Assembly: GCA_039924845.1 (NCBI GenBank)
Contig: JBDTAC010000048.1
Coordinates: 1-42,232, forward strand
DNA: 42,232 nucleotides
Source: Bacteroidia bacterium
GTDB taxonomy: Bacteria; Bacteroidota; Bacteroidia; DATLTG01
Direction: 5' to 3'
Below the pieces are notes generated by a model. It ran no database searches. It was not told the DNA's origin and was given only the letters and a program-made list of their open reading frames with translations. The translations under genes and the position numbers were made by a program. How positions within the stretch are numbered: position 1 is the first letter of the stretch; each line of letters starts with the position of its first letter. This document shows positions 32,828-35,675 of this stretch, in pieces.

Positions 32828-33046
32828 ATGAAAAAAAATCTTTCCATTGTATGTGCAGCATTATTTGCTGTATGTATGCTTCAATCAAATGTTTCTGTTG
32901 CGGCACAAACTCAAACTCAATCCAAAACGATTACCACTGCTCCACAAGACAATGGTAAGGACAAAGATCATGGAAAACACAAAGGAGAACACCACAAACA
33001 CCACCATGGTCATCACGAACACCACAAAGGTGGAGACAAAAAGTAA
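32828..33046 (+). CDS. Small secreted His-rich protein
   Basis: 72 residues. Signal peptide (LSIVCAALFAVCMLQSNVSVAA), a Gln/Thr-rich segment, then a mature C-terminus made mostly of His, Lys and Gly (KGEHHKHHHGHHEHHKGG). The His clusters suggest binding of zinc, copper or nickel in the periplasm, but this rests on composition only. It is a single-gene transcript ended by the strong terminator at 33064. Confidence 0.75.
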   Translation: MKKNLSIVCAALFAVCMLQSNVSVAAQTQTQSKTITTAPQDNGKDKDHGKHKGEHHKHHHGHHEHHKGGDKK

Positions 33047-33128: not shown

Positions 33129-34085
33129 ATGAATCGTAAAAAAATATTTTTTTCAGGACTTGCTTTTAGCGTATTTATTTTTATTTGCGGTAATTCTAGC
33201 GCTTTTTCACATCCATCCAATCGGAATCATTTATATTCTTCTTTCTATTTTCCAACACCTAAAGACACTACTTCAGCGGCGGCGGATACTGCCGACAATG
33301 ACATCAAATACCGTGAATTTATTTTTCAAAATGAATACGGCACAAACAGCGTTGTAAAAGGAAGAATCAACGGTAAATTACCTTATTCTGAACCTGGATT
33401 TACATACAATGCTTTGTCTGGTTTTAACTGCGGATTCACAATTACCCGACTATTGGGAAAGTATAATATTTGGGATGAAAAAGATTTAACTGCCGGTTGG
33501 GATTTTGATTTTACAGATAGCTGGGATGGCTCCATCGCTTATGCGCATCAATTTTATAATTCTCAAACGCCAAAATTAAATTCGGTTTTAGACAATTCGA
33601 TTATCGGCGAAACAGGTTACGATTTTAATATAATTTATACTTCCATCACCGCAGAATCTGATTTTGGAAGTATAAAATCGAAAGCTAAAAAAAAGAATAA
33701 TTCACTTAGCGATTTTTCTCTAATCTACGCTATTTCTCATCTATTTGAAATAGATCACCTTTTTCGGAAAAAGAAAAAAGATGAATTAGACATTGAACCA
33801 AAAATAAGCTGGGAAGGCGGAACGCAAAATTCTTACGATCAATATTTTAAAAAGAAAGCCGAAAATACACAAGGATATACATATAATCCCGTAAAATCTC
33901 CCACTGCTTTTAGTACCTTAAATTATGAATTCTCATTGCCGATAACATATACTATCGGACATTTTTCCATTGTGCCTGAATGGGATTATTACCTTCCTCA
34001 AAATGTTATTTCTGCAGATGTTTCATCCAAACCATACGGAATTGGCATACTCACGCTAAGTTATACTTTTAGAAAGCCGAAGTAA
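33129..34085 (+). CDS. Secreted hypothetical protein, probable beta-barrel
   Basis: 318 residues. Signal peptide (KKIFFSGLAFSVFIFICGNSSA), then an Asp/Asn/Tyr/Ser-rich sequence with alternating hydrophobic residues (AGWDFDFTDSWDGSIAYAHQF, YEFSLPITYTIGHFSIVPEW), ending GILTLSYTFRKPK. Paired aromatic strands and a C-terminal aromatic strand are typical of outer-membrane barrels, so an outer-membrane location is likely. A Lys-rich central patch (KSKAKKKNNS, RKKKKDELD) is probably a periplasmic loop. I recognise no family. Confidence 0.7.
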   Translation: MNRKKIFFSGLAFSVFIFICGNSSAFSHPSNRNHLYSSFYFPTPKDTTSAAADTADNDIKYREFIFQNEYGTNSVVKGRINGKLPYSEPGFTYNALSGFNCGFTITRLLGKYNIWDEKDLTAGWDFDFTDSWDGSIAYAHQFYNSQTPKLNSVLDNSIIGETGYDFNIIYTSITAESDFGSIKSKAKKKNNSLSDFSLIYAISHLFEIDHLFRKKKKDELDIEPKISWEGGTQNSYDQYFKKKAENTQGYTYNPVKSPTAFSTLNYEFSLPITYTIGHFSIVPEWDYYLPQNVISADVSSKPYGIGILTLSYTFRKPK

Positions 34086-34104
34086 TTTGTTTTATGAAGT
34101 ACAG

Positions 34105-34126
34105 CTTCATAAAAATATTTTTTTGA
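34105..34126. repeat. Dispersed AT palindrome upstream of the tandem array
   Basis: CTTCATAAAAATATTTTTTT followed by GA. Confidence 0.55.
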
Positions 34127-34149: not shown

Positions 34150-34380
34150 ACATGCTCCATCAAACAGTGTACATGCTCCATCACACGAGTAACATCTGCC
34201 ATCAAACAAATAACATCTGCCATCACACGAGTAACATGTGCCATCACACGAGTAACATCTGCCATCAAACAAATGACATGCTCCATCACACAGTGTACAT
34301 GCGTCATCACACTGTGTATATGCTTCATCACACGAGTAACATACGTCATCACACGGTGTACATGCTTCATCAAACAAATG
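34150..34380. repeat. 11 x 21-bp tandem array with variable tails
   Basis: Eleven units of exactly 21 bases, no spacers. Positions 9-13 (CATCA) and 15-16 (AC) are invariant; position 14 is A or C. Heads (5-8) are GCTC, CTGC, GTGC, GCGT, GCTT or ACGT. Tails (17-21) fall into three classes: A = AGTGT, TGTGT or GGTGT (units 1, 7, 8, 10); B = GAGTA (2, 4, 5, 9); C = AAATA or AAATG (3, 6, 11). The unit order is A B C B B C A A B A C. Confidence 0.95.
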
Positions 34381-34424
34381 ACGGCGGGCAAAACACTATA
34401 AACTTAAAACTTACAAACCTATAA
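34152..34424 (+). CDS. Possible His-rich heptapeptide-repeat protein
   Basis: A 90-residue ATG frame spanning the array: repeats of [Met/Ile]-x-His-[His/Gln]-Thr-[Val/Ser/Asn]-[Tyr/Asn/Asp], about eleven times, then GGQNTINLKLTNL. Several unit-to-unit changes are synonymous in this frame (CTC/CTT for Leu, ACA/ACG/ACT for Thr, TAC/TAT for Tyr), which mildly favours it over the other open frames. There is no clear ribosome-binding site or signal peptide, and at least three other frames are also open, so non-coding remains quite possible. Confidence 0.3.
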   Translation: MLHQTVYMLHHTSNICHQTNNICHHTSNMCHHTSNICHQTNDMLHHTVYMRHHTVYMLHHTSNIRHHTVYMLHQTNDGGQNTINLKLTNL

Positions 34425-34498
34425 CCCTTTTTTACTAAAAATAATTATCATTAGATTTGGAATATTAAATATGTGTTCTACATTTGATTCTGTGTAAG

Positions 34499-34621
34499 AT
34501 TTACAATCAAGGTTCTTACGCTATTACATTTAATAGTTCTAATTTAGCATCAGGAACCTATATTTGTACCATGACAACTAAGGATGATAAAAAAACAGTA
34601 GAAATTGTTAAAAGCAAATAA
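34499..34621 (+). pseudogene. Remnant of a T9SS sorting-domain C-terminus
   Basis: Forty in-frame codons read IYNQGSYAITFNSSNLASGTY, then ICTMTTKDDKKTVEIVKSK-stop. This matches the end of type-A sorting domains (strand, N-L-A-S-G-x-Y, basic tail). The frame closes upstream (TAA near 34468) with no start or cargo domain, so only the tail survives. It ends five bases before the next gene. Confidence 0.75.
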
Positions 34622-34625
34622 GGTG

Positions 34626-35252
34626 ATGAAAAAAATATTTTTCTTCTTTCTAAGTATTGCTTTGTTGGCAAGTTGCTCCATCAGCAAACGGAAATATCTG
34701 TCGGGTTATCACATTGATTGGAACACAAGAACTAAAAATATAGCTACTGTTCAGAGTGCTAAAAAATCAAAACCTGAAATACAGAAAAATATTTCTGAAA
34801 AAAACATTTTTGAATCTCAAAAAGCAATCACTAAAAAAAATAATTTGAGCATATCAACATCAAAAAACGAGAAAGTTGTTCCCAAAAATTTATCAATCGG
34901 AAAAGTGTTTTTCCCAAAATTAATGAAGCCTTTTAGTCTTTTTGGAGATACATTAAAATCAAATCAATCCCCAATAAACTCTGTACGCAAAAAAGAAGTT
35001 AAGAATCCTTGGTTAAGTCCTCTTTTTGGTGGATTATCATTGCTTTCATCTATATTGTTTCTATATTCTTTCGTAGCGGGAAACATTGGTGCAGCACTGC
35101 TGTTATTGATATTGACGATAATTTTATGTTTTATAACAATAAGAAAAACGAGCGAAATACGCCATAATTCCAATGGGAGATACAAAGGCTTGGCCATTTT
35201 GGCTATAATCTTAGTTTGCCTAAGTATTCTTCTTTTAGTATTAATATACTAA
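34626..35252 (+). CDS. Hypothetical lipoprotein with C-terminal membrane segments
   Basis: 208 residues from the ATG at 34626. A lipoprotein signal (FFFFLSIALLASC) is followed by a polar, Lys/Ser-rich region of about 110 residues without clear fold, then three hydrophobic segments near the C-terminus (LFGGLSLLSSILFLYSFVAG, ALLLLILTIILCFITI, LAILAIILVCLSILLLVLIY). The combination of a lipid anchor and terminal membrane helices is odd. I recognise no family beyond a general resemblance to small Bacteroidota membrane proteins with this tail. A terminator follows at 35275. Confidence 0.65.
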   Translation: MKKIFFFFLSIALLASCSISKRKYLSGYHIDWNTRTKNIATVQSAKKSKPEIQKNISEKNIFESQKAITKKNNLSISTSKNEKVVPKNLSIGKVFFPKLMKPFSLFGDTLKSNQSPINSVRKKEVKNPWLSPLFGGLSLLSSILFLYSFVAGNIGAALLLLILTIILCFITIRKTSEIRHNSNGRYKGLAILAIILVCLSILLLVLIY

Positions 35253-35455: not shown

Positions 35456-35665
35456 AAAAAATAAATTTTCTTTTCGCAATAATAATTTGCCAAACTGCTT
35501 TTGCACAAAAACAAAAAGCGGATAGTTCAAAATGGAAATAATTTGGGAGATACACAGGTATTGTTACTGAAAAAAGTAGAAGAACTTACTTTGTATATGA
35601 TACAGCAGAATAAAAAAATAGACGATTTACAAAAGCAAGTAAATGATTTAAAAGCAAGAAAATAA
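35452..35665 (+). pseudogene. Decayed secreted coiled-coil protein
   Basis: An intact signal peptide start (MKKINFLFAIIICQTAFAQK, then QKADSSKWK-stop) is followed, in another frame, by GNNLGDTQVLLLKKVEELTL, YMIQQNKKIDDLQKQVNDLK and ARK-stop (35663-35665). That tail, with N-L-G-D-T-Q-V and a coiled coil, is typical of the end of large Bacteroidota surface proteins. The middle is missing and the ends are out of frame, so this is a deletion remnant. Confidence 0.75.
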
Positions 35666-35675
35666 TTTCTGTACC

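Follow-up and report, generated by a model that had tools for sequence, protein, structure and literature searches.

Five intergenic arrays of a 21-bp unit in a Bacteroidia genome: a probable lineage-specific dispersed minisatellite

Genomic setting

The window, by which is meant the whole 42,232-nt stretch of DNA analysed here (contig JBDTAC010000048.1, hereafter C48), carries a tandem array of the 21-bp repeat ACATNNNNCATCAMACNNNNN at 34150–34380 on the forward strand, delimited by repeat scan and unit alignment. Immediately upstream lies a gene (33129–34085, + strand) for a 318-aa protein with an apparent signal peptide and no Pfam match, followed by a perfect 10-bp hairpin at 34090–34114 on the + strand (TTTTATGAAG / CTTCATAAAA, 5-nt loop) and a T run. 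The hairpin, identified by inverted-repeat search, has an AT-rich stem, ends 35 bp before the array and is absent from the terminator-scan listing; together with the T run, it is likely the terminator of the upstream gene. Further upstream (32828–33046, + strand) is a predicted secreted protein of 72 aa with a histidine-rich C-terminus (HKGEHHKHHHGHHEHHKGGDKK), possibly metal-binding.

Downstream, a remnant at 34484–34621 (+ strand) looks like the final part of a C-terminal sorting domain for type IX secretion; its match to PF18962 (E 0.0034) covers profile positions 41–71 of 75 and lies under the curated cut-off. A lipoprotein gene (34605–35252, + strand; PF08139) follows, encoding 215 aa from its listed TTG start. 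Beyond this, at 35456–35667, there is an apparent gene remnant whose signal-peptide start and coiled-coil-like tail (LLLKKVEELTLYMIQQNKKIDDLQKQVNDLKARK) lie in different frames, as well as a two-copy 19-bp repeat at 35631–35668. With remnants at both 34484–34621 and 35456–35667, the stretch beside the array resembles gene debris.

Structure of the window array

The initial annotation, made from the sequence alone, had described 11 units of exact 21-bp periodicity, each with a fixed CATCA-x-AC core and one of three interchangeable tails. Unit alignment confirms precisely 11 gapless units with no indels, and Tandem Repeats Finder calls the array at periods 21, 42 and 63. Read in order, the tails are AGTGT, GAGTA, AAATA, GAGTA, GAGTA, AAATG, AGTGT, TGTGT, GAGTA, GGTGT and AAATG, which reproduces the class order A B C B B C A A B A C that had been given. 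No two of the 11 units are alike, so nothing here points to a recent expansion. Directly after the array, at 34381–34399 (+ strand), is a probable decayed twelfth unit with a broken core, aligned by eye with a gap (ACGGCGGGCA--AAACACTAT against ACATGCGCCATCAAACACTAT); its ungapped profile score falls within the top ~1% of window positions.

Related arrays in the same genome

It had been proposed that the core be sought elsewhere in the genome, and a search of all 2.66 Mb (101 contigs, the window contig included) uncovered four further arrays and no solitary units. These comprise 13 units on C21, 15 on C41, 3 on C30 and at least 10 on C35, where the array runs off the contig start and the count is a lower bound; with the 11 units of the window array, the five arrays total 52 units. 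The genome contains 33 occurrences of a 26-bp two-unit pattern, as opposed to 0 of a reversed-pattern control, which places the array far beyond chance. A sequence profile of 42 positions, built from 34 unit pairs, recovered only the same five places and two weak short matches (E 0.15 and 3.6), and solitary units are therefore apparently absent.

All five arrays are intergenic. Neighbouring genes run in the same direction as the array at C48, C41 and C35, and in the opposite direction at C21 and C30, a mixed orientation that speaks against both coding and a fixed regulatory role. The first unit is of class A in every array (P = 0.0005 under random unit order). The arrays on C35 and C30 have a common upstream flank (48 aligned columns, 44 identical), and those on C21 and C41 a common downstream flank (55 aligned columns, ~90% identical). 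Behind their one shared leader, the unit count is 3 on C30 and at least 10 on C35. Shared flanks of ~50 bp in two pairs, combined with the length difference in one of them, show that the arrays are related copies that change in length. Alignment of unit order gave weak similarity only between C21 and C41 (nominal P 0.036) and no clear partner for the window array, the 3′ flank of which has only short AT-rich matches elsewhere in the genome.

Two further observations concern the surroundings of these arrays. A gene of unknown family at C21 (L008 2529–3302, − strand) has a paralogue on C64 (L182) with the same terminator hairpin, and the C21 copy has the array on one side and a tyrosine recombinase gene on the other. 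Several places carry a second short dispersed intergenic sequence (about TTGAAAATGATTTGAAAATGTGAAGATGTAACGATGT), some of them with a 21-bp array and some without, similar sequence being found at L174, L175, L178 and L179 and in the C35 and C30 leaders (L010, L011).

Conservation within the unit

Across the five arrays, seven of the 21 columns (A3, T4 and C9–A13) are invariant in 52/52 units, and columns 1, 2, 15 and 16 each depart from consensus in at most 3 of the 52. Variation is concentrated in columns 5–8, 14 and 17–21, and the mean difference between units amounts to roughly a fifth to a quarter of the positions. The core described from the window thus holds in all 11 window units, and its CATCA part in all 52, whereas the AC is altered in three units of one other array. 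The same applies to the link between tail and core, which had been said to hold always. In the window, tail B accompanies CACAC in 4/4 units and tail C accompanies CAAAC in 3/3; over the five arrays there are exceptions, tail B occurring with C at the variable core position in 12 of 13 units and tail C with A in 19 of 20 (together 31/33; Fisher P = 4.6e-7). The association is strong rather than absolute.

Occurrence in other genomes

The suggested comparison with relatives was run on samples of 395 genomes from the class and 396 from the phylum, overlapping sets in which this genome is the sole member of its order and family. Among these, arrays of the 21-bp unit were found in this genome only. 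Three short matches in the phylum sample were single matches without any repeat and were discarded. No arrays were found in the viral contigs (specific pattern), plasmids or phages searched. The array family looks lineage-specific on this sampling, and species- or genus-level relatives outside it could also carry arrays.

A probable dispersed intergenic minisatellite

With a probability of roughly 0.7, the five arrays, that of the window among them, are copies of a minisatellite that is lineage-specific, non-coding, dispersed and intergenic. Three options had been offered initially (a coding heptapeptide array, an iteron-like array of protein-binding sites and a recombining minisatellite), and the last is the best supported: there are five related arrays, intergenic, with common edges and flanks and differing unit numbers, and no match in the other genomes sampled. 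Head-to-tail units of 21 bp fall within the ~10–100 bp of minisatellites and variable-number tandem repeats (VNTRs), and unit number varies from 3 to 15 among paralogous arrays of a single genome.

An ancestral array would have been copied to several intergenic sites, in some cases together with ~50 bp of flank, and at each site 21-bp units would then have been gained and lost through slippage or unequal recombination. A small set of founding units, duplicated again and recombined, may account for the three tail classes, and the partial decay of edge units could reflect less exchange at the edges. We infer how the arrays were copied, that slippage or recombination changes their length, and that they are nearly neutral. 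If correct, this would constitute a new dispersed minisatellite family from an order represented by one genome in the sample, and the arrays might be of use as strain markers.

The frozen core is the feature least well explained by a neutral account. Purely neutral decay would be expected to touch the invariant columns also, so some constraint on the core is possible, and this keeps alive a different, though unlikely, reading, in which the arrays are phased protein-binding sites contacted at ACAT and CATCAxAC. A DNA-binding protein of this order-level lineage would use the arrays as clustered sites. With about one helical turn separating the centres of the two blocks, and two turns to each 21-bp unit, the proteins would stack on one face of the DNA and the variable blocks would lie on the other; selection would act on the core, and the tails could vary freely. 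Such an array might have a role in organising the chromosome or in a former mobile element. The alternation of conserved and variable blocks, with invariant core columns in 52 units at five loci, would fit this arrangement, as would the spacing of exactly 21 bp without indels and the occurrence of units in clusters only, never alone. However, the window genes tested and the surroundings of the arrays yielded no Rep, partition or other obvious partner gene, the arrays keep no fixed distance or orientation to genes, and they were not found elsewhere in the class sample. Moreover, unit number ranges from 3 to 15, edge units are degenerate, and a gap of ~10 bp between two conserved blocks arises almost by construction in a 21-bp ring.

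Plasmid iterons are like the 21-bp arrays in unit length and phasing, but here no Rep gene was found, no origin was identified, and the arrays occupy five separate genomic contexts. The partner gene that the initial annotation had proposed looking for, whether Rep-like or otherwise DNA-binding, did not emerge: there is no adjacent Rep initiator among the window genes tested or flanking the other four arrays, and the nearest DNA-acting gene is the tyrosine recombinase ~1.1 kb from the C21 array. The apparently constrained core and the 21-bp spacing still leave room for a candidate binding-site role. With a frozen core beside shuffled tails at five loci, the family lends itself well to the question of whether protein binding, or only drift, is at work.

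The closest described case, by analogy of architecture rather than unit sequence, is BrickBuilt of Porphyromonas gingivalis, a 23-nt intergenic minisatellite-containing miniature inverted-repeat transposable element (MITE). It occupies 19 loci, has promoter activity and partial leader and tail flanks, and in some copies carries IS5-like terminal inverted repeats (PMC4596501). Both are spacerless short tandem repeats (23 nt there, 21 bp here) with conserved and variable unit positions, intergenic at several dispersed loci per genome, variable in unit number, partly shared in their flanks and confined to a narrow lineage. By this comparison, the arrays could be the inner part of a non-autonomous, transposase-spread element with a leader and a tail, and the common leader of C35 and C30 and common tail of C21 and C41 recall partial BrickBuilt copies (PMC4596501). 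The idea nevertheless appears improbable. In contrast to the 19 BrickBuilt loci, some of them with terminal inverted repeats, the five loci here have none recognisable or in common, and the best inverted pairing, at C41, is weak (P about 0.015, one of four tests). The leader is common to one pair and the tail to another, with no complete element. As leader-like sequence also occurs elsewhere without an array, and the C21 tail extends into the terminator hairpin region of the gene with the C64 paralogue, the shared flanks look more like ordinary segment copying, and segment duplication is the better fit. Around the window array, a 23-nt pair with 83% complementarity (34077–34099 / 34365–34387) was rejected as a terminal inverted repeat because it overlaps the upstream stop codon, its 3′ arm is mostly within the last unit and it has no counterpart at the other arrays. 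Lacking such repeats at the element ends, the array family is not classed as a MITE. The two readings do overlap, since a MITE could carry the same minisatellite.

That the arrays encode a heptapeptide repeat (M/I-x-H-H/Q-T-x-x) is highly improbable. One + frame is indeed free of stops in all 52 units, but any 21-bp repeat preserves its frames, 21 being a multiple of 3. In that frame, 21% of changes are synonymous against 16% expected, close to expectation, and the largest synonymous excess is in a minus frame with 54 stops. Start codons lie inside the arrays or unpredictably outside them, their sites varying between arrays, and the 3-unit array on C30 would yield only ~20 residues in the stop-free frame. 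The heptapeptide option was thus not upheld by a conserved frame with a start site and synonymous bias, and on sequence grounds the arrays are non-coding. A structured RNA was rejected, as neither strand folds better than its shuffles (z = 0.58 and −0.10) and the only Rfam match is below the gathering score.

Possible origin of the unit

Heptanucleotide repeats such as the TAACTGA arrays of Beggiatoaceae, cyanobacteria and some Bacteroidetes (PMC4679880) are likewise short intergenic tandem arrays, although with a unit of 7 bp rather than 21 bp. Within the present unit, identity at offsets 7 and 14 is about 0.41 (P about 0.026), which amounts to a 7-bp sub-period, and the conserved letters can be laid out as three CATCAAA heptads. 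Its origin from a heptad run is only suggestive: with the core held fixed, the fit of the remaining positions to heptads does not exceed chance (P = 0.28); 121/295 class genomes have CATC heptad runs, but a reversed control pattern is also common; and no such run was found in this genome.

A broad-pattern scan of contigs from many genomes listed 117 matches. Most of these are simple runs of heptads, because a plain (CATCAAA)n also satisfies the pattern, and a few are isolated, unrelated matches; none was taken as a relative of the arrays. Among the matches listed, CATCAAA or CATCACA heptad runs (L042–L158) are spread over many unrelated phyla, and are very frequent near the contig ends of one Desulfobacterales bin (GMC2).
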